A stretch of DNA of 64,000 nucleotides from Gemmatimonadota bacterium (GTDB taxonomy: Bacteria; Gemmatimonadota; Gemmatimonadetes; Gemmatimonadales; GWC2-71-9): assembly GCA_025357945.1 (NCBI GenBank), contig JANYLJ010000054.1, positions 1 to 64,000 on the forward strand, read 5' to 3'. Shown here in pieces: positions 14,035-64,000 of the stretch. The notes under the pieces were generated by a model. That model did not search any database, was not told the DNA's origin, and saw only the letters and a list, made by a program, of their open reading frames with translations. The position numbers and the translations under genes were made by a program. Numbering within the stretch: the first letter of the stretch is position 1; each line of letters begins with the position of its first letter.

Positions 14035-15038
14035 CCGAACGTGACCCGACGCCCCTCGGCGGACGATCGAGACGCGGCGTCCAGCAGCGTGGCGACCCGT
14101 TCGATCTCCATCAGGCTCGCCTCGCTCTCGCCCCGATCGATCGCGTCGGCAAAGTCGCCGAGAATCCGGCTCATCCAGCCGGCGTATTCACGCTTTTCCA
14201 ACTGGGTGCTGAAGTCGGTCGTCTCGGTACGGCCGTCGCGCCGAACGAGACGCAGCAGTCCGCCCACCCACTCTACCATCCCTTCATCGCCAATGAAGCG
14301 GATCCGATTCTCCCGCTCCTGGCCCGCCCACGTCAACGTCAGTGTGGCGGTGCGCTGCCCGTAGTCGATCAGCAGGTGCGCCGTGTCTTCCACATCGTAA
14401 CTGCTGTGGCCCAAAGAGGTAAGGTGAGCCAGCATGGCATCCGGCATCCCGGCGACGTCGAGCAGCAGGTACAACAGGTGCGTGCCATGATCGAGCAGCA
14501 CACCACCGAGGCTGTTCTCTTTGCGCCCCCGCCAGGGCACACCGCCAGCGATCGCGCCGCGATCCGCCTCGGCGCGGTAGACGTGAAACTCCGCCAGGTG
14601 CCAGCGTCCGATGGCGCCAGCATCAAGCAACCCGCGCAGCGCAATCCAGGCCGGGTTCTGGCGGTACTGATGACAGGGGAAGAGGACGCGGTTCGCGGCC
14701 CGCGCGGCAGCAGCGAGTTCCCGCGCTTCGGGTGCATTCACGGCGACCGGTTTCTCGCAGAACACGTGCAGCCCGCGCGCGAGCGCATCGAGCACCAGAG
14801 CCCGGTGCGTGGCGGTTGGCGTGCAGATATCCACGAAGTCGATCGGACCAGTCGCCGCCGCCGCACTCAGTGACGCGTAGACCGGAAGACCACCGAGCTC
14901 GGGTGCCGGTTGGCGCGAATCCACCGCGCCAACGACCCGGAGCCGCGACGCGATCTGTGCGTCGTGGGTGTAGGCGGGGACGTGTGCCAGTCGCGCGACG
15001 CCACCGGCGCCGACGATTACTCCCTGCCGCAGCGTCAC
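14031..15038 (-). CDS. Gfo/Idh/MocA family oxidoreductase
   Basis: Rossmann VIVGAGGVARLAHVPAY; DICTPTATHRALVLDALARGLHVFCEKPVA; GGVLLDHGTHLLYLL; start set at GTG 15038. Confidence 0.9.
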   Translation of the reverse strand: MTLRQGVIVGAGGVARLAHVPAYTHDAQIASRLRVVGAVDSRQPAPELGGLPVYASLSAAAATGPIDFVDICTPTATHRALVLDALARGLHVFCEKPVAVNAPEARELAAAARAANRVLFPCHQYRQNPAWIALRGLLDAGAIGRWHLAEFHVYRAEADRGAIAGGVPWRGRKENSLGGVLLDHGTHLLYLLLDVAGMPDAMLAHLTSLGHSSYDVEDTAHLLIDYGQRTATLTLTWAGQERENRIRFIGDEGMVEWVGGLLRLVRRDGRTETTDFSTQLEKREYAGWMSRILGDFADAIDRGESEASLMEIERVATLLDAASRSSAEGRRVTFG

Positions 15039-15928
15039 TATGCCGCCTGGGCCAGCCGTTGCGCATCCGGGTGGAGGACCATCGCGGCGTGTCGTTCGTG
15101 GACGACGAGGATCGCGACGAGCACGCCGGACATTGGCACCAGCGTCACCCAGAGGAAGGCCGCAGGATGGCCGGGAACGACCGTCACCGCCAGCAGCAGG
15201 AACCGGATGTTCTGGCCGATCCAGGCGCATTGACGAACGACCGGCCGCTGCAGTTCAGCCCACCGGTCGGCCAAATCGGGGACGCGCAGGCCCGAGCGCA
15301 GGCGACGCACCAGCTCGAGCGATCGCGGTACCATCCTACCGGTGCGCTCCAGGTAGTTGTGATAGAAGCGGAGCTGCGCCGCCGCGACCGCGGTGTGCGC
15401 CGGGATGGCCGCCATGTCGTCGGCCAGGTTCAACTCGCCGCGGCCGCCCTCGGCAAGGTAGAGGTACAACTGCCGGATGTAGTCGACGGCGCCGCTCTGG
15501 CGGGCGTGGGCGAGTCCGGCCGCCACGCCCAGCGGTACGACCAGCCACCACGCCGCACCGGCGACGATCAGCCGGGCAATGAGGTGGCAGTACATGTTCG
15601 TGAAGCGCGCTCCGTCGGAGATGCCGTCAAGGATCTTTCCGAATCGGGTCGCGGTGCCGCGCATGCGGGCGAGCTGGCCATCGGCGCTGTCGAAGATATC
15701 GGATACGACAAACAGCGCGACACCGAGCGCGTTGAGCGCGACGCTGTTGTAGAAAAGCAGATGCCCAGCGGCCAGGCCAACGAGCAACGCCACCAGCGTC
15801 ACCTGGTCGGGGGAAACCGCCGTCGGCAGGCACGCCCGCGCGATCCGCAACCCGATTGGCCGGAAGAAGACTGTGTCAGTCCACTCCTCGATGGCCGGAC
15901 CCTTATCGAACGAGGCGTTCACTGGCAT
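15038..15928 (-). CDS. CDP-alcohol phosphatidyltransferase family protein
   Basis: DIFDSADGQLARMRGTATRFGKILDGISD matches the DGxxAR...GxxxDxxxD signature; multi-TM. Confidence 0.9.
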   Translation of the reverse strand: MPVNASFDKGPAIEEWTDTVFFRPIGLRIARACLPTAVSPDQVTLVALLVGLAAGHLLFYNSVALNALGVALFVVSDIFDSADGQLARMRGTATRFGKILDGISDGARFTNMYCHLIARLIVAGAAWWLVVPLGVAAGLAHARQSGAVDYIRQLYLYLAEGGRGELNLADDMAAIPAHTAVAAAQLRFYHNYLERTGRMVPRSLELVRRLRSGLRVPDLADRWAELQRPVVRQCAWIGQNIRFLLLAVTVVPGHPAAFLWVTLVPMSGVLVAILVVHERHAAMVLHPDAQRLAQAA

Positions 15929-50155: not shown

Positions 50156-50248
50156 ATCGCGTCGCCAACCGGCGGGATCGGTGGACCACGCTGCGGGCTA
50201 CGCCGTCACGGGAGCGACCGGCCGAGTTCTTCGAGCGAAGGGCGCCGG
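50156..50248. repeat. 93-bp direct repeat, copy B (carries the 3' end of the kinase gene and a displaced FHA/M15 3' end)
   Basis: See copy A; plus frame continues ...ERRAPAGIVAPGRNDGV stop at 50286; minus frame ends the kinase RRPSLEELGRSLP stop. Confidence 0.92.
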
Positions 50249-50859
50249 CGGGGATCGTCGCTCCGGGCCGCAATGATGGCGTCTGAAGCGGCATCACCGA
50301 GCAGCGCAGCGAGTGTCATCGCCACACCGTAGACATCGACCGCCGGCGACACAACGCCCGTTGCGTTCTTCCGCAACTCTGGCGCTGACCACGGTGGCGT
50401 GCCGACTTCATCCTCTTGCCAGCCATCCGGCAGCGCGCGTGGCGGGTCACCCCAGGCGGCGATCCCGAAGTCCGCCAAGCGGAGTGCGTCACCCACAAAA
50501 AGCAGATTGGACGGCTTGATGTCCCGGTGTGTGACACCCCGTGCGTGGCACGCCGCGACGACGGCGAGCAGCTCGCTCGCGATGCGCTTGCGGTTGCCCA
50601 GGGACAGCCCGCCGCGCAGTCGGTCGTGAAGCGAGCCTCCGTCGGCAAACTCGAGCAGGAGCGTGAGCGGCGCCTGCCGTACCTCGAGCAGCCGGATCAC
50701 CCCGGGCGTCCCGGCGAGGTGCAAGAGTACGTCCGCTTCGTTCTGCAGCCGCAGGGCGAAGTCCTCGCGCATGGCGTCTTCGGGGCGGAGCTGCTTGAAG
50801 GCACAAGGATTTCCCCGCGCATCCATCCCGCGAGTGATCAGCGACGTCGCCTGCGTCAT
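50206..50859 (-). CDS. Compact Ser/Thr protein kinase
   Basis: CAFKQL lysine, VTHRDIKPSNLLF, RLADFGIAAWG, GTPPWSAPE; glycine-rich loop poor. Confidence 0.88.
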   Translation of the reverse strand: MTQATSLITRGMDARGNPCAFKQLRPEDAMREDFALRLQNEADVLLHLAGTPGVIRLLEVRQAPLTLLLEFADGGSLHDRLRGGLSLGNRKRIASELLAVVAACHARGVTHRDIKPSNLLFVGDALRLADFGIAAWGDPPRALPDGWQEDEVGTPPWSAPELRKNATGVVSPAVDVYGVAMTLAALLGDAASDAIIAARSDDPRRRPSLEELGRSLP

Positions 50860-51773
50860 CAGATGATCAGGAACTTGAACCGCGCCATCCCCGCGAGCGA
50901 AAACTCATCACCGTCTTCGAGCGTGCGGTGTTCGCCGCGATCGAGCAATTCCTCGTCCATGTAGGTGCCGTTCAGCGATGAGTCGATCAGGAAGTACTTG
51001 TCGTTCTTGCGGACGATAGTGCAGTGATAGCGTGAGATGAACGCATCGGCATCGCTGAGAATGAGGTCGTTCCTTTCCTCCGGCCGATCCGATACCGCCG
51101 AGCCAATGCGAAACACCGGCCGATCGATCGTGTACATCTTGCCGCGCCCGATGCCATCGATGATTTCCAGCATCGCCTTCTGTTGCGACGCATCAGCCCG
51201 CCGCCGGGCCAGCTGCCGCTGGTGACGGGCGGCCAGAAGTCTGGCACCGACGGCCACGATGAGCGCGAGGAGCAGAATCGAGCCCGCGATCGTGAACAAG
51301 GTCGTCCGCAACTGGCGCGCTCGGGCGAGGGCGACGATGCGATCGCGAAACGCCAGCGCGCGCTGGTTGTCGGGTTGCGCGGCAAGGATGCCATCGACCG
51401 TATGGCGCGCGCCAGCAAGATCCCGCGACTGAATCGCACGCTGCACTGCGGCGAGCCGCTGATCGATGGCGTTGCCCGCCTGGCGCACCGAATCGGACTT
51501 CACCGCCGCGTCGTAGTCAGCCACCGCCGCCCGATAGCCGGCGTCCACCGTCGAATCGCCCATCCCCTGCAATTGCATCCGCTTCCAGCAGTCGGTCCGG
51601 TCACGGATACTCTGCATCGTGTGGTCGGCCGATTGGTCCATCTGCTGGCAGAAGTGGCGCAGCGTAGTCTTTTCCTGCTCGCGTTGTCCACTCGTGCCGG
51701 ATGGGCTGACTCGCCCCTGGGCCATCAGTACCGCTGGGAGGAAGGACAATACCGCGAGGACCCGACTCAGCAT
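50859..51773 (-). CDS. Transmembrane protein with signal peptide, extracytoplasmic domain, TM helix and C-terminal FHA domain
   Basis: [85 protein letters not shown]; paralogous to 56212-57132. Confidence 0.9.
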   Translation of the reverse strand: MLSRVLAVLSFLPAVLMAQGRVSPSGTSGQREQEKTTLRHFCQQMDQSADHTMQSIRDRTDCWKRMQLQGMGDSTVDAGYRAAVADYDAAVKSDSVRQAGNAIDQRLAAVQRAIQSRDLAGARHTVDGILAAQPDNQRALAFRDRIVALARARQLRTTLFTIAGSILLLALIVAVGARLLAARHQRQLARRRADASQQKAMLEIIDGIGRGKMYTIDRPVFRIGSAVSDRPEERNDLILSDADAFISRYHCTIVRKNDKYFLIDSSLNGTYMDEELLDRGEHRTLEDGDEFSLAGMARFKFLII

Positions 51774-51813
51774 GGCGGGAAAGGTGGTGCGAACGGTTGC
51801 CCGGGTCCAGCCG

Positions 51814-53112
51814 TCACCGGCGGAGCGCGGTTCGGCGCGCCGTCTGATGAGTGATGTCTTCCGGCTGCCGGGGTGGTCCTTCTTCGGTCGTGACACCGGC
51901 GGCCCCGGTCCGCGTGGTGGTCGAGCGTTCGCGTGCGGTGGGCGCCGCGACCGTCGATTGACGCCACCCGACGCGCAGGGCCAGCACCCAGATTCCGGCC
52001 ACCAGGACTGCCATCAGCAACGCGACAACTGGGCGGTTGCTGCCGGCACCAACACCAAGAAGCAGCGCCTCTCGAAGTGCCGGGCTCAGTGCCGATGGCT
52101 CCGCGACCGCCTGAAACGCCGGCATCGCGATGAGCGGCGGCCGCCACGCCAACGCTGCGACCGCAGCCCGCGTCGCGCCGACGCTCAGTGCCGCCGACCC
52201 GATTGCGGCTGTCCGACCCAGTGCCGCGGTCCCGAGTGCGCCAACACCGAACGTCAATTCGCGCGCGCCGATAAACTCCCGGGCAATGGCCGCGAGGCGG
52301 AGCGCGATAGCGTTCGGATCGAGCGCTACGGAGTAGGCCGAGCCGGCGGGACCAGCCAGCGCATGAAGTTCGGCCATGGGCGCATTCACGCTGAGCGCCA
52401 GAATCCAGATGCGCGGCCCGGCGGAGCCCACTCCAGCCGCGGCCTGGCTCAACCCGGCAGGCCCGGCAAGCAGGTCCGCCGCATCCTTCCCCCGCCCCAG
52501 GTCGTTGCGACCCATGCTGATCACCAGCAGACCGGCATTGCCGCCGAACGCGCCGTCACTCGCCGCCGCAACGCGCTGCGCACCGCGCAGGATCGCGCTG
52601 TACAGCGGCGATCGTCCCTTGGACGCCGGCGCCCGCAGGGTGTCAACCGATGCGATCGCCGACCCAGGCGAGTGGAACGTGGCGTCGGCAATTTGCCGCG
52701 GCAGATCTCGCCCGTCGAATCCCACCACGGCGACCTTGATGGCGGAGGTATCAAGAGTGGCAAGCCAGGACTTCAGCGCAATCCGGGTGAACGCAATCCC
52801 TTCTCCCGACATCGCGGCGCCGCGATCGATCAGGATCAACAGCCGCGTTGGCAGCACCTCGGCCGGTGCCGCGCCGAGCCCTGGGCCGACCAGCGGGTGA
52901 CCAACAATTTCGCCGCTCCACGCTGCGTTTTGCCAAACGGAATCCAGCGCCCCCACCGCGGCGCGCGCGGACGCATCAAGCGTTACGCGGGCTCGCAGGC
53001 AGGGGGCATCACTGCCGGCTGTGCAGCGCACCAGTTCGAGGCGCGCGGGGACCTGCGCCATCCCCACGCGCGCCACGGTGATGCCGAGGACCGCGAGCAG
53101 TGCTCGTCGCAT
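51814..53112 (-). CDS. VWA-like domain secreted/membrane protein
   Basis: RLLILIDRGAAMSGEGIAFTRIALKSWLATLDTSAIKVAVVGFDG pattern; C-terminal TM VVALLMAVLVAGIWVLAL. Confidence 0.65.
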   Translation of the reverse strand: MRRALLAVLGITVARVGMAQVPARLELVRCTAGSDAPCLRARVTLDASARAAVGALDSVWQNAAWSGEIVGHPLVGPGLGAAPAEVLPTRLLILIDRGAAMSGEGIAFTRIALKSWLATLDTSAIKVAVVGFDGRDLPRQIADATFHSPGSAIASVDTLRAPASKGRSPLYSAILRGAQRVAAASDGAFGGNAGLLVISMGRNDLGRGKDAADLLAGPAGLSQAAAGVGSAGPRIWILALSVNAPMAELHALAGPAGSAYSVALDPNAIALRLAAIAREFIGARELTFGVGALGTAALGRTAAIGSAALSVGATRAAVAALAWRPPLIAMPAFQAVAEPSALSPALREALLLGVGAGSNRPVVALLMAVLVAGIWVLALRVGWRQSTVAAPTARERSTTTRTGAAGVTTEEGPPRQPEDITHQTARRTALRR

Positions 53113-53948
53113 CACGGCGCCCGGAGCACTCGAAGGTGGTACCGGGTCCGACCGACCGCGATCGTCCCGGACGCCGCAATGAACGTCGGGTGCCGAACGT
53201 TGTGGCCGGACGCGACGACACCGCCCGCCGGCGGATAGAGCGCGATGCGCCCGCTCACGCAGGCGACCTGCGCCTCGCCGAGCGCGAGCACCTTCCCGTC
53301 GTGGAGTGGCCATTCCCGGAGCGTCAGCAGGCTCGGCTCCTCACCGCGGGCCGGCAGCAGTTCGATCGTCGCGGTCGCGTGCCAAAGCTCCGGGCCTGAA
53401 ACCGCGAAGCCGACTGTACCACCGAACCAGAGCGATGCGACCGCCTGCCACACGTCCGTAGCGCCAGGAAGGGTGAAGATCACGCCGGCGATTGCGCCAC
53501 CGCCGCAGGCGATCAACGCACTTTCCGCGATCCGTCGCGACGGGCGGCCGTGGATGAATGCCGCCAGGAAGGTCGTTGTTCCACCGGCGGAGAACGCCCA
53601 GGCGGCGACACGCTCGATCAGGAAGATTCGCGCCGACGCCGACGTGTGGATGAAGGCGAGCAACGACGCGCCGCAGAGCGCGCCGACGCCGCCGAACAGC
53701 GCGCCGGCGACGGCGTTGAAGACCACATCCTGACGCTGTCGGAATGCGCGGGCCGCGATCACGGCGCCCCCCACCACTCCGCCGACGACCAGCGCCGCAA
53801 TTTGGTCGAGCCGGGTGTAATCGACGGTCACCACCGGGCCGAGCCCGTTGAGCAGCCAGCCGCAGGCTGCGGCGGCGATACCGATCACGGTGGAGGCGAG
53901 CACGCCGTGCGGCAGGCGCGACGCGCCAGCACCGGTCGCCGCGTTCAT
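53112..53948 (-). CDS. Multi-pass membrane protein with C-terminal cytoplasmic beta-rich (FHA-like?) domain
   Basis: Several TM segments; C-terminus EEPSLLTLREWPLHDGKVLALGEAQVACVSGRIALYPPAGGVVASGHNVRHPTFIAASGTIAVGRTRYHLRVL. Confidence 0.6.
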   Translation of the reverse strand: MNAATGAGASRLPHGVLASTVIGIAAAACGWLLNGLGPVVTVDYTRLDQIAALVVGGVVGGAVIAARAFRQRQDVVFNAVAGALFGGVGALCGASLLAFIHTSASARIFLIERVAAWAFSAGGTTTFLAAFIHGRPSRRIAESALIACGGGAIAGVIFTLPGATDVWQAVASLWFGGTVGFAVSGPELWHATATIELLPARGEEPSLLTLREWPLHDGKVLALGEAQVACVSGRIALYPPAGGVVASGHNVRHPTFIAASGTIAVGRTRYHLRVLRAP

Positions 53949-55012
53949 CGGGCGAGGTCGCGAATCTTGTTGGCGGCGTCCTTGTTGCCCTGTGCTGCGG
54001 CCTTGCGATACCACTCCAGCGCCTTCGCTTTGTCCTTCGCGACGCCGAAGCGTCCCTTTTCGTACGCCTCACCGACCGCGAACGCCGCCTCGGCGTGCCC
54101 CGCGTTACCGGCGCGCGAGTACCAGTCGAAAGCCGCCGCTTGGTCCTTCTTCAATCCACGGCCGCGGTCGTACGCGACGGCGAGCTGGAACATCGCCTCG
54201 CGATCGCCGTTGCGCGCCGCCTGCACGAACCAGCGCGCGGCACTGTCATCACTCTGATTGACGCCATTGCCGCGTTGGAACAGCAGGGCCACGCTGCGCT
54301 GTGCCACGGCGCTGCCAGCCTGCGCCGCATGGGTGCACGAACCGTACGCATCGCGCCACGACGCACTCGCCATGTTCTGCCGGCAGGCGGCATCGTCCGC
54401 CCCACCGCGCTTGAGCGTGGGCGCGGGAGCCGGAGCGGCTGGCACCTTGGACGGGCGGGCCGGCACGAGCTTGGGCGACCAGGCGAAGTGTTGTCCGGCG
54501 GTGACCTGCACCGTGTCGGTCCGGGGGAGATAACCGGGCTGCGATACGTCGAGGACGTGGCGACCGACGGTTACAGCGAGGCGGCGTCGCGAGGTCCGCT
54601 TTCCGTCGACCTTCATCACCGCGTTCCTGGGGAGTGCGGTCGCGATGATCGCCGCCGCCGCCGGTGGCGGAGGTGGCGGAGGTGGTGGAGGTGGCGGGGG
54701 TGGCGGGGGTGGCGGCGTAGCCTTCGGCGACGCAGCAGCCTGCACAGGTGCGGTCACCGGCGTGGGTGGTGGCACGGCGGCAGCGACGGGCGGCGTCGCG
54801 ACCACGGCTGCCGCTGGTGAGTGCGGCGCGCCAGCCGGCGGGGCGGCGGGGCGCGGCTCTTTTCCCGTCGGCAACGTGAGAAGTACCACGGCGAGCGCGA
54901 TCAGGCCGAGTGCCGTGGCGACGGTGACAACCCGATTGCGTCCGGCGAGGCCTGGGCTGGCGACGGGTGACGGCGGCAGTGGCACTTGCTCGGCGGGCGC
55001 CGTTTCAGGCAA
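53945..55012 (-). CDS. PEGA-like and Sel1-repeat protein with TM segment and long polyproline tract
   Basis: Sel1 repeats (AVAQRSVALLFQRGNGVNQSDDSAARWFVQAARNGDREAMFQLAVAYDRGRGLKKDQAAAFDWYSRAG...), PEGA-like VTVGRHVLDVSQPGYLPRTDTVQV. Confidence 0.85.
   Translation of the reverse strand: MPETAPAEQVPLPPSPVASPGLAGRNRVVTVATALGLIALAVVLLTLPTGKEPRPAAPPAGAPHSPAAAVVATPPVAAAVPPPTPVTAPVQAAASPKATPPPPPPPPPPPPPPPPPPAAAAIIATALPRNAVMKVDGKRTSRRRLAVTVGRHVLDVSQPGYLPRTDTVQVTAGQHFAWSPKLVPARPSKVPAAPAPAPTLKRGGADDAACRQNMASASWRDAYGSCTHAAQAGSAVAQRSVALLFQRGNGVNQSDDSAARWFVQAARNGDREAMFQLAVAYDRGRGLKKDQAAAFDWYSRAGNAGHAEAAFAVGEAYEKGRFGVAKDKAKALEWYRKAAAQGNKDAANKIRDLAR
54662..54717. repeat. GGN triplet microsatellite encoding polyproline on the minus strand
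   Basis: cggtggcggaggtggcggaggtggtggaggtggcgggggtggcgggggtggcggcg. Confidence 0.85.
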
Positions 55013-55074
55013 CGATCCTCCCGAAGTCAGTGGCTCGGTGGCGAGGCGCGAAGAATAAGCGCAGTATTAGGAGA

Positions 55075-56334
55075 ATGCCGCAACCCGCCCTGACCCCTGT
55101 TCTTCCGACGCCAGGTCGGGCCGTCGCGCTCGGAACGCGGTCGCCGGCCTGGATCGGGAGCAGTGCCGATAGCGTAATCCAGGTCTTTCTTCCGGGCGTG
55201 GCCGACCGTCACGTGGCACTGGTCGAACGGGAGGATGGTTGGTGGGTCAGCGAGGGCCACGGCAGGGCGACGATCAACGGCGTGCAGCTCCATGGCACGG
55301 TGCACCTCGGTGACGGCGACACCATCGAAGTCGCCCCCGGGTACCGCTACCAGTTCACCAGCGGCGCCGTTTCCGCCGTTGACGAACGGCCGGTCGTGGC
55401 CGCCCCGCGCAAGAAGCGAAAGCGGCGGCGACCGTCACAACCGCCGGGCGTAGGCCGACCTTGGGCCGTGATCGGAGTGTTCGCCCTGATCGTGCTGTTA
55501 GGGGTCGGAGCGGTTTTCGGTATCTGGCGCGCTTCACGCAACGAAACCGCGTCGGCCCAGCTGACCGACGCCCAAGCAGAGGAGTTCGACAGCCTCCTCG
55601 TTGTTGCCTATGACCACGTCGAGCGCGGCAGCACGTTGCTCGAGATGGGACTCCGGGACGTCGCCGCGCAGGAGTTCGCGCGGGGCGTCAATACACTGGC
55701 GCTGAGCGACTTGCGATCACGGCCGCAGGTGCGGCCGCGGACGGAGGCGCTCGAAGCATCCGTCGCGGCGATCTACCGTGAGCGCCGGTTGGCAGTGCCA
55801 CGGGCCTATGCGGGCGCGCGGAGCACCCTCTCGCCGGAGAAGCTTCGCGCAGCGTCGCTTTCGGTCGAACAATTCGCCCGCGCCTTCGCCCAGGTCGAAT
55901 CAGCGTTCCAGGCCAAGTTCGGCGAGTCGATCTTCGTAAGCGGACGCGACCATGCGGAACATCTTTCGCTCTACGGCAGCGGCGGCGCGCTGGATCTTCG
56001 TACCAAGAGCATGACGGCGCAACAGGTGCAATTCGTCGTTGCGTCATGCGCGGCGCGCGCGATCCGGGTGAAGGACTTCTCCCAGGATTCGATCCTGCAG
56101 CGGCAGGTCGCCGCGGCGCTCGCCGCGGGGTTGCTCGATCGTGCCGGAACCGGCCTGCACCTTCACATCGACCGGTTTGCCAATCATCGCGATCACTGGA
56201 CCGTGTCGTACTCACATCAGCAGGAACTTGAAGCGGGCCACGTCAGCCACCGTGAACTCGGCGCCATCATCCAGGCGTTGGTGCTCACCCCGTTCGAGCG
56301 GTCCGTCGTCAAGCATCGTACCATTGAGGCTTGA
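55075..56334 (+). CDS. N-terminal FHA-like domain, TM segment, extracytoplasmic M15-like peptidase domain (paralog of 47985 gene)
   Basis: FHA-like region with GVADRHVALVEREDGWWVSEGHGRATINGVQL; TM VIGVFALIVLLGVGAVFGIW; SGRDHAEHLSLYGSGGALDLR...TGLHLHIDRFANHRDHW. Confidence 0.85.
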   Translation: MPQPALTPVLPTPGRAVALGTRSPAWIGSSADSVIQVFLPGVADRHVALVEREDGWWVSEGHGRATINGVQLHGTVHLGDGDTIEVAPGYRYQFTSGAVSAVDERPVVAAPRKKRKRRRPSQPPGVGRPWAVIGVFALIVLLGVGAVFGIWRASRNETASAQLTDAQAEEFDSLLVVAYDHVERGSTLLEMGLRDVAAQEFARGVNTLALSDLRSRPQVRPRTEALEASVAAIYRERRLAVPRAYAGARSTLSPEKLRAASLSVEQFARAFAQVESAFQAKFGESIFVSGRDHAEHLSLYGSGGALDLRTKSMTAQQVQFVVASCAARAIRVKDFSQDSILQRQVAAALAAGLLDRAGTGLHLHIDRFANHRDHWTVSYSHQQELEAGHVSHRELGAIIQALVLTPFERSVVKHRTIEA

Positions 56335-57132
56335 ATCGATCAGGTAAAACGCGCCCTCGCGTCGGATGATCGAGCAATGATATCGCGAAACGGCCGCGGC
56401 GGAGTCACTGAGGATGAGATCGTTCTTCTCCTCAGGCTTCGCCGAACTTGCGGCGCCGATCCGGAAGACGTCGCCCTCAATCGTGTACTGCTTGCCGCGC
56501 CCGATGCCGTCGATAATCTTGAGGATCGCTTTTCGCTGGGCGGCGACGACCTTCTGCTCCAGCACCTTCGACTGGTGTCTGGCGCCAAGTTTCTTGGCAA
56601 GGACGCCGAGACCCGCGACAATGACCAGGACGGCAACCCCGACGGCAATGAGCGTGATCTTGAGCTGTCGGGCACGCTTCAGCGCCAGAATGCGATCGCG
56701 GAAGGCCAACGCGCGCTGGTTTTGCGGCTGGATCACCAGCAAATCGTTCACCGAACTTTCGGCATCGTCGAGATTTCGCGTCTGGATCCCGCGTTGGACG
56801 GCAAGCATCTTCTGGTTGACCGCGGTGGTGCTTGAATCGGACGACTTCCGGACTGAGTCAGCAGCGACTGTCCTATCGTAGTCCGCCACGGCCGCCTGGT
56901 ACTTGGCGTCGACGACCGCATCGCCCATCCCCTCGAGTTGCATCCGCTTCCAGCAATCGGTGCGGTCCTTCGCTCCCTGCACCGTCGCGGGCGCACCCAG
57001 ATCGGTCTGCTGACAAAACCGGAGCAACGACGCCTTTTCCGTTTCGCGGACGACGGGATCCTGGGCAGACAGCGCCGCACCGGATGTCGCCAGCAGGCTG
57101 ACCGCGAGTAGCGCCACCCGGCAACCGCTCAT
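56212..57132 (-). CDS. Transmembrane FHA protein (paralog of 50859 gene)
   Basis: Shared FCQQ.D...[15 protein letters not shown] motif; TM; C-terminal [57 protein letters not shown]. Confidence 0.9.
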
Positions 57133-59805
57133 GCAGCGGTCACCGGCGGCGGCTCAGGCTTCGGCTTGGCAGCCGCCTGTTCGCGCAGCCGCACGACTTC
57201 CTCGCGAACCTCATCAGGCGTACCCACCAGGATGCTGATCTCCTCGCCCTCGGGTGTGAGCTGCACCAGGAAGCCCGGCTGTACCTCGCCGCTGATGATC
57301 AACCGGGACAGATCGGAGAGCACCATCCGGTCGATCGTCCGCTCGACCGGCCGGGCGCCATATGCCGGGTCGTACGCCAACTCCGCCAGCAACGCGACGG
57401 CAGGCTCATCCGCCTCGAGCACCGCCTGATGCTGCTCCGCCACCTGCGCCGCGATGCCACGAAGGTGGATTCGCACGATCTGCCGCAGCGTTTCGACATC
57501 GAGCGCGTTGAAGGGGATCACGCCACTGAGGCGATTGAACAGTTCGGGGCGCAGCGTGTTCTGCACGACCTGCAGGATGATGTCCTTGCGCTTGGCCAAG
57601 TCATCCGTCGCCGCCATCGCTTCCTTGACACCAAGGTTCGACGTCAACAGCACGATCGTGTTCGTGAAGTCGCAGAAACGTCCCTTCGCGTCGGTCAAGC
57701 GTCCTTCGTCGAGAACGCCGAGGAGGATGTCGATCACTTCCGGGTGCGCCTTCTCGATTTCGTCAAAAAGCACGATCGAATTCGGCGCGCGGCGCACCTG
57801 TTCGGTCAGGAAACCACCCTGCTCCGACCCGACGAGTCCCGGTCGCGAGCCGATCAGACCGGACACGGAACCGGAGTCCTTGTACTCCGCCATGTCGATG
57901 CGGATCAGCGCCGCATCGTCGTCGAACAGTGCGCCGGCGAGCGCCTTGGCAAGTTCCGTCTTGCCTACGCCGGTCGGCCCGACGAAGAGAAACGACGCCG
58001 GCTTCCGTTTCTTGCGCAGGTCCGCGCGCATCCGCCGCGCCGCCTCCGCAAGTGTGGTGACCGCGTCCGGCTGGCCGATGACACGTTCCGCCAGGCGCTC
58101 TTCGAGCTTGAGCAGGCGTTCCCGCTCGCTCTCCATCATTCGTGCGACGGGAATGCGGGCGCGCCGGGCGACAACGTCGGCGATGTCATCGGGACCGACC
58201 TCCTGCGGAATCAGGAGCCCGGCCCTCTTGAGCTCGTCCAGGCGTTCGACGAGCGCGGCTTCCTGGCGGTGCAGTCCCTCGATTTCCACGTGACGCAACC
58301 CGGCGACCTTGGCCACATCGCCGGCCGCCTCGGCGGCGGAAAGCTCTGTTTCCTTGCCAGCGAGAGCGGCCCGAGTCTGCTGCAACCCGCCGGACACCTC
58401 CTTCTCCGCGGTCCAGCGAACGAGCAAACCGTCGAGTTCGATCCGCTTGCTCGCGATCTCGTGGTCGACGGCGGCGATGTCGTCGGCCTTGCGGCCGGCG
58501 GTCTGGTACGCCTGCCGTCGCCCTTCCAGACGCACCAGTTCGCGCTCGAGCGTGTCGATGCGATCAGGCTTGGATTCGTGCTGCATGCGGAGTCGTGCGG
58601 CCGCCTCATCCAGCACATCGAACGCCTTGTCCGGGAAAAAGCGATCGCGCAAGTGCCGTCGCGCCAATTTGACCGTGGCCTGCAGCGCGTCCTCGGTGAT
58701 GTGGACACCGTGGTGCGCCTCGTATTTCGCCTTCACGCCGCGCAGCATGGCCAGCACGGTTTCATCATCCGGCTCGTCGACGACGACCTTCTCGAAGCGC
58801 CGGGCCAGCGCGCCGTCCTTCTCGATCGATTCGCGGTATTCCTCATGCGTCGTCGCGCCCACGCACCGCAGTTCGCCGCGGGCGAGCGGCGGCTTGAGAA
58901 TGTTTGCGGCGTCCATACCGCCCGCATTGCCACCAGCACCGACGAGCGTGTGCAGCTCGTCGAGAAAGAGGATGACATCCTCAGCCGCCCGGACCTCATC
59001 CACCACTGCCTTGATCCGCTCCTCGAATTCGCCGCGGTACTTCGCCCCGGCAACCAGCCCGGTCAGGTCGAGGGCGAGCACGCGGCAGTGCTTCAGCGAT
59101 TCCGGGACGTCGCCGGCCACAATGCGCTGGGCCAGGGCTTCGACGACCGCAGTCTTGCCGGTGCCAGGGTCGCCGACCAGGACGGGGTTGTTCTTCGAAC
59201 GGCGAAGCAACGTTTGCAGTACGCTGCGAAGTTCCGCGTCGCGCCCGATGACCGGCGAGAGCTTCCCCTCGCGCGCGGCTTGGGTGAGATCCTTGCAAAA
59301 GCGCTCGAGCTGGCTTCCCGATGCTGCCGCCGTGGCGGCGGCCGCGCCTTCCGCTGCCGGTTGATTCGCCTCGGGACTGTCGACGGCGCGACCGAGACGC
59401 TCGGGAGACCATCCCGCGTCGAGCAACGCGCGTCCCACGGCCAGCCCCGGGGACTCGGTGGCCGCGATCACCACGTCGAGCGGACCGACAATATGGGCAC
59501 CGCGCTTGTCCACGACCGCGATGGCGCGATCGAGCAGGTCGCGCAGGGCGCGACTGGCGATCGGCTGCTGGCCCGGTGCAACGCGGCCCTCGTTCTCGGC
59601 ATCGGTCACGCCGTCGATGTACCGCCGCGCCATTGCCGCATCGAGGCCTAACGTCGCGGCGATACGCGACAGTGCCCCGTCGGGGTCGAGCAGCGCGAGC
59701 AGCAGATGCCGCGGCCGGATGTATCCGGCACCCGCGCGGAGCGCGATGGTGCGAGCATGTTCGATCGCGGCGCTCAGGTCCATGGAGAGTCGGTTCAGGT
59801 CCATG
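57129..59805 (-). CDS. ClpV/ClpB-type AAA+ ATPase of the T6SS-like locus
   Basis: Clp-N repeats; [59 protein letters not shown]; adjacent to TssK/G/F-like genes. Confidence 0.9.
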
Positions 59806-59832
59806 CGGACGTCTCCGGGTCGCGTGAAGTCA

Positions 59833-61446
59833 TCACGAAGGTTTGCGGACGGTAATCTTCGGGACAGCGGACGGTGCACCCTGAGGTGCCACTGGACCTC
59901 GCGGCGGCGGACTGCTTGGCGGCATGGCATCCGGCATCGCGCCCGCCACGAGACCAAGCCGCCGCTGAAACAGAATGGCACCCCGGACGCGATGCGCCGG
60001 CTGGACCTGCGCGCTCAGCCCAGCGATGGTCGCGACATCGGCTGGTGTCTCGAAGGTGATGCCGAAGTTGCGCTGCCCTGGAATCTCACAGGTGGCAACC
60101 CGGGAAATCGGGCGCCCGGGTGCGCCCTCCGCGTTGATACGCAAGTCGACCCGCAGCTCGTCGCCGACTTGCCAGCCAGACACTCCCTCGGGATCACCGA
60201 GTAGCACCAGGCGGTACTCATGCCGACCAGTAAGCGAAAGCTGATTGAAGACGAACGTGATCAGATCGCCGTCACGCTGCGGATGGCCGGGTGTCGCGAC
60301 CGCGACATAGAACTGGTCGCCCTGGCGATCCAGCAGAAACTTGACTGCATCGACGGAACGATTGATCCGGTAGTCGATGTACTTCCCTTCGAGCGCCTCG
60401 ACCACCCGACGGATGCGGCGCAGGGTGTCGTCGGCACGCGCGAGCGACTGGCGCAAATCCTCGCGGACAGCGAGCTCGCGCCGAGCTGCGAGCACGCCGC
60501 GCTCCTCCTCGAGCAGGTCGTTGTACGTCGCATCGGCACCGGACAGCGTCTGAAAGTATGACTGCGTCGAACTGCTCAGGTCGAGCGCCAGTGCCACCCG
60601 GCGTCCGGCCCGATCCACCTGATCGAAGAAGATTCGCGGAGGGATTGCCGGATCGCCAATTTCGGACGAACAGTAATCCAATGCGAGCACGGCCCGCTCG
60701 GTGAAGGACAGCACGTCCAGGTCGGGACGGCTATCGACGCCCCGGCGCCCGACCTGTTCCGCGTAGCGGCCCACTGCTCGCTGCAGTTCACCGAAGCTGC
60801 CCGTCAGTAGTCCGAGTTCGGCTTGCAGGCGCGTCCAGCCAGCGTACAACTCGCTGTGCGCCATCATTGTCGCGCAGGCCGGGATGAAGGGGCTGTCCCG
60901 TTCGAACGCGAGCGACTCGCTCGCGCGGCGAAGCCGCCCGACGACCAGGGTGTGCGGCAACAGGTCAGCAGGCAGGCCGAAATGCACATCGTAGCGCGGC
61001 CGACGAAACGCCGCCATGGTTGGATTGGCGGTATCGGTGCCAGCGGATGCCGGGTCTTCCACCTGATCACCGGTACGCACCACGTAGATGAACAACTCCT
61101 TGGCTCCTGCCAGCTCGGCCTTCGATGATTCGCCACGCGCAGGCGCCGCCGACACGATCTCCACCGGCTCGCCTGCGCTGGTGATGCCGCGCGCCTGCAG
61201 GATGGTGACGCTCACCGTTCGTCCGTCGTCGTAGACGTCGAATTTCGGATCGTGCGCGCTGAGCCCGCGCTCGCCGGCGTCCATCCGGACGCCGCCCCCC
61301 ACGAGACCGGTCGCCGGAACGCAGTGACGCAGCAGCCATCCGAACGTCTGGTCGACAAAGCGGTCCTGTGCGTTGAAATGCGACGGCGTGAGCAGCATCC
61401 CTGAAATCCAGTTGACGGACTTCAGGCCATCTTCGTCTTGCGTCAT
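59833..61446 (-). CDS. T6SS baseplate protein TssK-like
   Basis: N-terminus [31 protein letters not shown] is TssK-like; position next to ClpV, TssG, TssF. Confidence 0.8.
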
Positions 61447-62363
61447 GCGGCCCTCCTGACTGGCGACGTCCCAAGATACGCATTGACGCCGAGCAGCGCG
61501 GGGCGCTCGGCGAGCCCGAGCACCGTGCCCGCGGCAGGATCACCGACCGACCAGCTTTCCGACACCGATGCGGACAAGTGGGCCGGCAGGATCAATGGAT
61601 ACAGCACTGTACGCTGCCGAGCGGACTCGGCATCCGCATTGCGTCGCCAGGCATCGAGCGTCAGCGGCCCGAACGTAATTGCAACATGCGCGTCGCCCAC
61701 GACACCACCGCCGAGGACGGCATCGAATCCCAGCCGCCCGTTGCGGGTCCCCAGTCGAACCACGCGCTCGGCGCCCACCGGTACCACGTCCTGCCTCACA
61801 TGCACTGTGGCGACCGGGAGACCGAAAATCGCGGCCATCGCGACACGCACCGCCGACTCCGTTCCACCCAGGGCGTGCAGCCGAGGGACCAGGCGGGCCA
61901 ACGCGTGCCAACGTTCCGCCGGCCACGGATCGACCGGGATCGCGAACAGGTCATCGAGCCACCGGCGGGCGGTGATCGGTTCGTCGGCCTGCAGCGCGAG
62001 ATATCCGCCACCATGCCGGAGAAAGAATGCGAGCTTGAGTGCGGGATTGTCGAAGATCGCGAAAAACCGATCGCCGCGCAGTTCGACTTCGCTTTCGTCG
62101 CGGAGCGGAAACGGCAGCAAGTCCATTGCGCCGCTGCCGCCGACGCGAAGCACAATTCGGGACACCTGGGTGAGTGTGGTGCCGGGCAACGGATCTTGCG
62201 AGATGACGGCCCCGCCGGGCTCGCCCGGTCCGGCGCACTCCAGAACGATATGGCCAAAGTCGATCCCGAGCCGGAGCAGCGTGAGCAGCGCGGAATCGAC
62301 GCGATGCCGGACGCTCCGCCTGATCCCGGCCAAGTCCGGCATGAGCACCAGTGGCTCAGCCAT
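61443..62363 (-). CDS. N-terminal PASTA-like domain fused to TssG-like baseplate protein
   Basis: PASTA-like: MPDLAGIRRSVRHRVDSALLTLLRLGIDFGHIVLECAGPGEPGGAVISQDPLPGTTLTQVSRIVLRVGG; TssG-like: LKLAFFLRHG..., RLGFDAVLGGGVVGDAHVAITFGPLTLDAWRR. Confidence 0.7.
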   Translation of the reverse strand: MAEPLVLMPDLAGIRRSVRHRVDSALLTLLRLGIDFGHIVLECAGPGEPGGAVISQDPLPGTTLTQVSRIVLRVGGSGAMDLLPFPLRDESEVELRGDRFFAIFDNPALKLAFFLRHGGGYLALQADEPITARRWLDDLFAIPVDPWPAERWHALARLVPRLHALGGTESAVRVAMAAIFGLPVATVHVRQDVVPVGAERVVRLGTRNGRLGFDAVLGGGVVGDAHVAITFGPLTLDAWRRNADAESARQRTVLYPLILPAHLSASVSESWSVGDPAAGTVLGLAERPALLGVNAYLGTSPVRRAA

Positions 62364-64000
62364 CGGCCACCACCGTTACCACGACCTCGAACCCCAGCAC
62401 GGCCCGCTCCTGCAAGTGCCGCGTGAGCTGGGCTTCGAGACGCGGCAACTCCGCCTCTGCGTCGGCGAAGTCGGCCGGATCCACCGACGCCGTGACCGAC
62501 TGACCTTGACGCGAGCGCCCCGCGGCAACCGACGTGATCGGCACAACACGGACGCAACGGACTCGGGGCTCAAAGGCGCGGACCGCAATCTCGGCGTCCG
62601 CCGCGGTGACCACCCGTTCACGGGTACGGACCAACTCCGCGAACCGCATCTTCGCTGGTGCGTATTCCGGTGGCGCCGTGCCGCCGCGCGACGGGACAAG
62701 GTTGGTCACTTTCGCGCCAACGTTGGCGAGCGACGCACCGATCTGGTTGATGGCACCGGGGTCGATCCCGTTGGCGCCTGTCCCATCGCAGTAGACCAGC
62801 CGGACCATTGCATACGTATCAAAGCGACCAGTTGCGTTCTGGGCCGGGCGCATGTCCATGCGACGGTCGCGATAGCGCCACCGTCCGACTCCGACGGGAA
62901 CGTCGAGTGCGGCGTCGGGGGCATACGCCGCACCCTGCTCCCCCGTGATTCCGAGCACGCCCATCAGGAACCGCCCCTTCCGGCCCTCCGGCTCCAATGT
63001 CACGACACTGCCCATTCGATCGAAAGGCACCTGTTCCGCGACGATCTCCATGTTCGACACCGTAACCGCGTTCACCGCGATGCGCTGCACCGCGCTCGCA
63101 ACGCCGCCGAGACCCGGGGCCAGCGGCACGTGCAACCAAACAAGTTTCTGGCTCAGCCCCCTGACCTGTTCGGGTGGCAGCAACGCCGGCATGCTCGCCG
63201 CGATCGCATCGGGCACGCCAGTTCGCCAGCGACGATCGACCGGTACCGGCGGAAACACGAACACTTGTTCGCCATATGGCCCGCCGGCGAGATCGGCGAG
63301 GTTCGCGATCGACTCGCTGACGCCAGCGGGAGTGACCTCGTCGAGCCACTCCAGTCGGCGCACACCACCCCTGCCTCGGCGCGCGCGCAGTGTACCATGT
63401 TCGTTTGCCGCACCCCGCTCGTCGAGCAGATGCCACGGACTCTGTTCAAGGGCGCGCGCCAGCGGGCCGCCGAGCGGCAGGGTGTCGATCATCAGGCCGA
63501 GCCCGCCCAGATGCGACCCATCGGGATCGAATGCCAGGAAGAGCGCCGGCGGCGAATCTCCCAGGGACAGCGCTGCAGTCGACGGCAGCATCAGCGCACC
63601 ATCGCGCAAGGGACGCGCACCAGCGATGGTCGTCAACCGACCGGACTCGTACACGGCCGCGAATCGCAATTCTGTCGGCGCCAGCTCGATCGACTCGTCG
63701 GGAACGAAGTCGAAGCGTTCGCCCGAACGCGCAGTACCCACAAGTTCCGTTTCGAGCGGCAACCGTTCCCGCTGCACGATCCCGCTGAAGGCCACGACCG
63801 ACTGCGCCGGGTGGGCGAGCCGAGGCGGCATGCCGAGACCGGCGAGCAGGTCATCGAGCACGCCAAGCGGGAACGCCTGTTCGGCTTCCTGGTACAATCG
63901 CCCGATCTGGGTGGCAAAGGTGTGAAAGAGTGTGGCAAGTACTGGATCTGGCTGGGCCTGTGTGCCGTAGCGCTGCTGCAGCGCCACGTCGAACTCTCGC
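62356..64000 (-). CDS. T6SS baseplate protein TssF-like (runs off right edge)
   Basis: ALQQRYGTQAQPDPVLATLFHTFATQIGRLYQEAEQAFPLGVLDDLLAGLGMPPRLAHPAQSVVAFSGIVQRERLPLETELVGTARSGERFDFVPDESIELAPTELRFAAVYE; 4-8 bp overlap with TssG-like gene; open past 64000. Confidence 0.7.
   Translation of the reverse strand, partial: REFDVALQQRYGTQAQPDPVLATLFHTFATQIGRLYQEAEQAFPLGVLDDLLAGLGMPPRLAHPAQSVVAFSGIVQRERLPLETELVGTARSGERFDFVPDESIELAPTELRFAAVYESGRLTTIAGARPLRDGALMLPSTAALSLGDSPPALFLAFDPDGSHLGGLGLMIDTLPLGGPLARALEQSPWHLLDERGAANEHGTLRARRGRGGVRRLEWLDEVTPAGVSESIANLADLAGGPYGEQVFVFPPVPVDRRWRTGVPDAIAASMPALLPPEQVRGLSQKLVWLHVPLAPGLGGVASAVQRIAVNAVTVSNMEIVAEQVPFDRMGSVVTLEPEGRKGRFLMGVLGITGEQGAAYAPDAALDVPVGVGRWRYRDRRMDMRPAQNATGRFDTYAMVRLVYCDGTGANGIDPGAINQIGASLANVGAKVTNLVPSRGGTAPPEYAPAKMRFAELVRTRERVVTAADAEIAVRAFEPRVRCVRVVPITSVAAGRSRQGQSVTASVDPADFADAEAELPRLEAQLTRHLQERAVLGFEVVVTVVADG

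Follow-up and report, generated by a model that had tools for sequence, protein, structure and literature searches.

We find that the protein encoded at positions 61443 to 62363 of the window, i.e. of the whole 64,000-nucleotide stretch of DNA from the soil-bacterium lineage Gemmatimonadota that was analysed, is a genuine TssG with a PASTA domain in place of the canonical N-terminus, and we consider it probable (roughly 0.6) that this domain serves as a cytoplasmic protein-protein module by the hub of a type VI secretion system (T6SS). The fold of the domain, the family of the protein, the replacement, the co-inheritance of the two parts and, as judged from sequence, the cytoplasmic location are established by the data given below, whereas the role of the domain is proposed. 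In the E. coli wedge structure the N-terminal region of TssG, a core component of the T6SS baseplate, is poorly resolved. The swap of this region for a compact and known fold therefore provides a handle on the role of the TssG N-terminus, and at the same time presents a clear case of a fold seen as a wall sensor at work inside a contractile machine.

The gene resides on the minus strand, for which the earlier note gave no indication; it starts with the ATG at 62363 and encodes 306 residues (the stop codon is included in the coordinates). The open reading frame translates without internal stops, so that the uninterrupted frame claimed before is indeed present, and a sequence scan identified neither a signal peptide, as had been claimed as well, nor a transmembrane (TM) stretch. 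There is an overlap of 8 nt (ATGGCTGA) between the start of the gene and the stop of the TssF gene, and one of 4 nt (ATGA) between the stop of the gene and the start of the TssK gene, so that it is a tightly coupled operon gene.

The proposal that the first ~75 residues constitute a PASTA domain is supported by Pfam, AlphaFold2 and Foldseek, which together delimit the domain to residues 8-76 (62136-62342, minus strand). When the whole protein was scanned with Pfam, PF03793 matched residues 8-75 over profile positions 3-63 of 64 (E = 2e-4), with a score (21.6 bits) just below the cut-off (23.2 bits). The N-terminal 81 residues by themselves, the check that had been suggested, scored above the cut-off (25.7 bits, E = 1e-5), with the match extending over the full domain, and so did the domain in a six-frame search of its own genome (24.6 bits); the best E-value for the isolated domain among the homologues was 1e-7. 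The modest score is likely owed to an insertion of six residues in the loop that joins beta1 to alpha1 (residues 15-20; 62304-62321, minus strand); this insertion contains two arginines, R16 and R19, that are invariant in the family alignment, and it is absent from the other PASTA domains that this genome encodes. The clear ones among these are found in a three-PASTA TM protein (G000:C49, L001) and in a PBP-like protein (G000:C32, L003), and either is a possible source of the PASTA domain of TssG.

At the structural level, the AlphaFold2 model of residues 1-83, made with six relatives, had a mean pLDDT of 83.7 and displayed the order strand-helix-strand-strand-strand, i.e. the beta-alpha-beta-beta-beta fold that defines PASTA. 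A Foldseek comparison of this model with the PDB returned PASTA domains for all 30 best matches (those of StkP, PknB, PBP2x, PrkC, PBP1 and PonA2), with probabilities of 0.82-1.00, after which the probability dropped to 0.06 at match 31; the TM-scores to 5nod and 3ouv were 0.76-0.77 (normalised by target). The N-terminus thus folds as PASTA and is not the ordinary TssG extension that had been named as the observation that would speak against the claim. The model of the full-length protein is weak (mean pLDDT 59), in contrast to the confident model of the isolated domain; the structure matches of the full-length model were a mixture of PASTA domains and baseplate proteins of contractile systems, with EAEC TssG (6giy_C) at rank 39. 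An extracytoplasmic location is usual for PASTA, although it is not part of the fold definition, and here the lack of a signal peptide and TM stretch, and the nature of the gene as a baseplate gene, indicate otherwise.

The remainder of the protein (residues ~82-298, about to 300; 61470-62120, minus strand), composed of helices and a C-terminal alpha/beta domain, was described before as TssG-like and this description is sustained by Pfam, hhalign and motifs. PF06996 matched residues 155-243 (E = 1e-5; 25.5 bits versus a cut-off of 24.6), and residues 98-305 paired in hhalign with residues 114-330 of canonical TssG (E = 1.7e-7). The equivalog cut-off of TIGR03347 was missed by a wide margin (28.4 versus 143.3). 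In canonical full-length TssG proteins the match to PF06996 begins at profile positions 1-5 (and runs to about 303), whereas in the PASTA-containing proteins it never begins before position 102, so that the canonical N-terminal segment (profile positions 1-100) has no counterpart. Because this segment is replaced by PASTA, the protein should be viewed as a variant and not as a canonical TssG; as judged from these alignments, PASTA takes the place of the first ~100 residues and is not an addition to a full-length TssG. In the EAEC wedge, TssG as modelled begins at residue 122, the N-terminus before it being unmodelled, and residues 122-177 form a three-helix bundle with TssF; the wedge also contains density without assignment (PMC6300606). 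It follows that PASTA occupies the place of the unmodelled region.

TssG binds TssK by means of two feet that carry the LG-repeat motif LGXXXXLGXXXXLG and that fit a W-L-F cavity motif in TssK (PMC8406304). Both feet are present in the protein described here, foot 1 as LGTRNGRLGFDAVLG (residues 204-218, the TssK-binding loop; 61710-61754, minus strand) and foot 2 as LGLAERPALLGVNAYLG (residues 282-298; 61470-61520, minus strand), and the family alignment contains two corresponding conserved blocks with some variation. The W-L-F triad was found at the published spacing in the TssK of all nine orthologues examined from these loci. Since both sides of the contact have been kept, the TssG-TssK contact itself is very likely to have been kept.

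The genes around this TssG make up a T6SS locus that covers 50206-64000 of the window and continues at L032:1-6052. TssF (62356-63999, minus strand, running on beyond the window end; TIGR02243, E = 7e-6; syntenic in 12/12 loci) and TssK (59833-61446, minus strand; TIGR03353, E = 8e-7), with its W-L-F cavity motif in the N-terminal part, adjoin TssG in all 12 loci examined. They are followed by a ClpB/ClpV-type ATPase (TssH; 57129-59858, minus strand; TIGR03346/TIGR03345 and synteny) and by an FHA protein with one TM segment (56212-57132, minus strand; PF00498, E = 8e-12; TIGR03354; TM scan), for which the predicted topology places the N-terminal part outside and the FHA domain inside. The order conserved in the loci examined is TssB, TssC, a small protein, an Hcp-like protein, a TssE-like protein, VgrG, TssF, the PASTA-containing TssG, TssK, ClpV, FHA-TM and a kinase, and close by lies another FHA-TM protein; some of the loci are cut by contig ends. 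TssC (PF17541, E = 6e-19) and the OB domain of VgrG (E = 8e-17) were clearly recognised and TssB (PF05591, E = 6e-4) fell just below the cut-off, while Hcp and TssE are named from their position, without profile support. The cluster therefore holds TssB/TssC, VgrG, TssK, TssF and ClpV, and represents a T6SS in the wide sense.

The second FHA-TM protein (55063-56334, plus strand; weak match to PF00498) is kept in the loci that reach that far and has a strongly conserved His/Asp-rich periplasmic domain with the motifs HLSLYGxGGAxDLR ... GLHLHIDRF, which may possibly be wall-binding or peptidase-like; a resemblance to peptidase M15 noted by eye found no support in Pfam. The kinase (50206-50859, minus strand; PF00069, E = 4e-28) is a soluble Ser/Thr protein kinase without PASTA and is kept in most loci. 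Several other genes in the neighbourhood deserve mention. A vWA-like stretch (LLILIDRGAAMSG) occurs in the protein encoded at 51814-53118 (minus strand), which has no Pfam match and adjoins tssB in most of the related loci that reach it. Duplicated modules of FHA-TM, vWA-like, TM53, PEGA-Sel1 and kinase genes flank the T6SS locus (50859-51896 and 56212-57132; G077 L034). A 105-residue protein without family match lies between TssC and Hcp (L032:3916-4233, minus strand), a position kept in several loci. Further away, LysM-like proteins surround a PAAR protein (L032:13417-14115, 14064-14753 and 14943-15776, minus strand, the last with PG_binding_1), next to an 877-residue protein of no assigned family (L032:15653-18286); this gene group is likely a spike-associated or effector module.

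The membrane complex that characterises T6SS subtype i was not recognised in the system. The profiles for TssL/DotU and TssM/IcmF gave no match in 15 of the 17 genomes that encode the PASTA-containing TssG; G316 was the sole genome of the 17 with TssM, and TssL was confined to G316 and G300; the contigs concerned also carry a second TssG, of the canonical type. In a control on canonical genomes the same search recovered TssL in 5/5 and TssM in 4/5. The branch thus appears to be devoid of recognisable TssL/TssM, where the profiles could miss very diverged copies, and this makes the attachment of the machine to the envelope a testable question. In other T6SS the membrane complex (TssJLM) is contacted by TssK through its C-terminal half. 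The Pfam match of the TssK in the locus ends at profile position 252 of 429, its C-terminal half being unmatched, so that the half facing the membrane complex has diverged; within the lineage TssK is well conserved, and this conservation extends into the C-terminal part as far as about column 500 of the alignment. TssJLM is not known from T6SS subtype iv.

The role we propose for the domain takes TssG as the single-copy backbone of each baseplate wedge. Going by motifs and profiles, its C-terminal part would dock two TssK trimers via the two LG-repeat feet and would pair with TssF. The PASTA domain would stand before the TssF-TssG three-helix bundle, in place of the former N-terminal segment, and from this position at the head of the bundle (TssF2-TssG), adjoining the tail hub, could act as a cytoplasmic protein-protein module, a role in keeping with its high conservation. 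By analogy with LysM domains elsewhere, it would most likely connect the wedge with either the hub or an adjacent wedge, and the sequence conservation of the insertion with R16 and R19 suggests that this loop may be its dedicated interface. LysM-type hub-wedge connectors include T4 gp53 and Afp7. In Alg7, the hub protein of an eCIS, the LysM domain contacts the wedges (PMC8894135). The earlier note left the choice between a repurposed domain and a baseplate that interacts with something unexpected; with peptidoglycan taken as an example of the latter, we infer that the former is the better supported, and the binding of peptidoglycan by the PASTA domain of TssG is not supported.

An unlikely alternative is that the domain has retained its usual class of ligand and that the baseplate senses or binds wall material, for instance cytoplasmic precursors of peptidoglycan, by which the machine would be placed or armed where the wall is made. 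Kinases and PBPs carry PASTA domains that are wall-related, the system needs another way of placing its baseplate as TssL/TssM are not recognisable, and besides its membrane FHA proteins and Ser/Thr kinase the locus includes LysM/PG_binding_1 proteins. However, without signal peptide and TM stretch TssG cannot reach the periplasm, it carries one PASTA domain whereas PASTA sensor proteins usually carry several copies, the insertion, conserved and specific to the lineage, suggests a special partner, and the LysM/PG_binding_1 proteins adjoin PAAR and may be cargo. It also seems improbable that the PASTA-containing TssG serves to dock the baseplate on the membrane FHA proteins that the locus encodes, in substitution of the TssK-TssJLM contact and under control of the kinase. 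Such docking would fit the failure to detect TssL/TssM, the unmatched C-terminal half of TssK and the presence of FHA-TM proteins in the loci reaching that far and of the kinase in most loci. On the other hand, the conservation of TssK within the lineage includes its C-terminal part, so that TssK may still do the docking, and FHA domains bind phosphothreonine whereas a phosphosite on PASTA is only hypothetical. We think it decidedly improbable that the lineage built a T6SS without TssJLM in which the PASTA domain of TssG reads cytoplasmic wall precursors and the kinase and membrane FHA proteins complete the circuit; if true, the weapon would be assembled or armed at the sites of wall synthesis.

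The notion that the N-terminus is an ordinary TssG domain, far diverged and PASTA-like by convergence, can be largely refuted and is very improbable. It has in its favour that the domain holds the equivalent place in the protein, ahead of the same helix bundle, and that the order of a helix followed by strands is loosely alike by eye. Nevertheless, an hhalign comparison of the PASTA profile with the N-terminal segment of canonical TssG yielded nothing beyond 11 columns, at a probability of 0.5%, and in a Pfam control PASTA was matched by none of 11 canonical N-termini, even with an E-value limit of 10, versus 11/11 isolated N-termini of the PASTA-containing proteins; the Foldseek result, with PASTA domains only among the best 30, points in the same direction.

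The distribution of the protein, obtained by the search for the same architecture in related genomes that had been proposed, is confined to one lineage. Among 399 Gemmatimonadota genomes (mostly drafts or MAGs) 17 encode the whole protein, and both PF03793 and PF06996 were matched in 17/17 homologues; the TssG family as such occurs in 77 of the genomes, of which about 58 have canonical TssG only. Five further weak matches concerned the PASTA region only, and one of them (L027) turned out on read-through to be an ordinary multi-PASTA protein. Although the assembly is a 75-contig draft, a chimeric contig or mis-called start that joined a PASTA gene to tssG is refuted by the occurrence of the fusion in 17 independent genomes of several families, with start region, junction and coupled frames alike. 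When TssC was used as the query, 17 of the 19 positive genomes had the PASTA-containing TssG and in the other two (G291 and G371) the contig ends before tssG, which leaves no complete locus of this TssC lineage without it among the 399 genomes. All 17 genomes share one divergent T6SS lineage in which PASTA is fixed across several families; most of them have no other T6SS.

Within the family the mean pairwise identity is highest for the PASTA domain (54.5%, versus 47-50% for the other TssG segments), and the pairwise distances of the domain correlate with those of the other segments (r = 0.81-0.91). Because the distances of the domain track those of the remaining protein, the sequences indicate a single old fusion that was passed on vertically together with the TssG part of the gene. 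A pattern scan of 85,462 species, a procedure that is poor at distant relatives, gave no matches beyond Gemmatimonadota; the scan with the family alignment recovered six loci, all within that phylum, and the scan with the single protein recovered no relatives. An origin from phage or plasmid was rejected, the protein having no matches in phages, plasmids or viral contigs. In a literature search, with most subscription journals outside its reach, no paper mentioned a PASTA domain together with TssG, and papers on PASTA in connection with T6SS or baseplates did not describe a protein of this kind; the PASTA mention in Salmonella SPI-21 concerns a separate ORF that is listed as not T6SS-linked (PMC2907695). 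No earlier report of PASTA on TssG was thus found.

In comparison with known systems, the protein shares its C-terminal domain, by profile, with EAEC TssG in the TssK-TssF-TssG wedge (PDB 6GIY; PMC6300606) and shares with the TssG of T6SSi the pair of LG-repeat feet that take up two TssK trimers and the W-L-F cavity on the side of TssK, and the order tssF-tssG-tssK is as expected for a T6SSi wedge. It differs from T6SSi TssG in having PASTA for the first ~100 residues and in the low identity of the body (20% in hhalign). The PASTA domain resembles those of the PknB, PrkC and StkP kinases and of the PBPs (PF03793) in its beta-alpha-beta-beta-beta fold, the (V/M)PD start and the core G-T-V-x-x-Q-x-P-x-x-G-T, but it is a single copy, cytoplasmic, and placed on a structural protein, and it has the six-residue loop insertion with the invariant R16 and R19. 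With Alg7 it would have in common the use of a wall-binding type of fold as hub-wedge connector in a contractile baseplate, yet in Alg7 this fold is LysM and resides on the hub protein instead of on the TssG/gp7 wedge protein (PMC8894135). Like the T6SS subtype iv of Amoebophilus (PMC8894135), the present system is T6SS-like and contractile and appears to lie outside the classical subtypes i-iii, and it differs from that subtype in possessing a TssBC pair as well as genes of the TssK and ClpV types.
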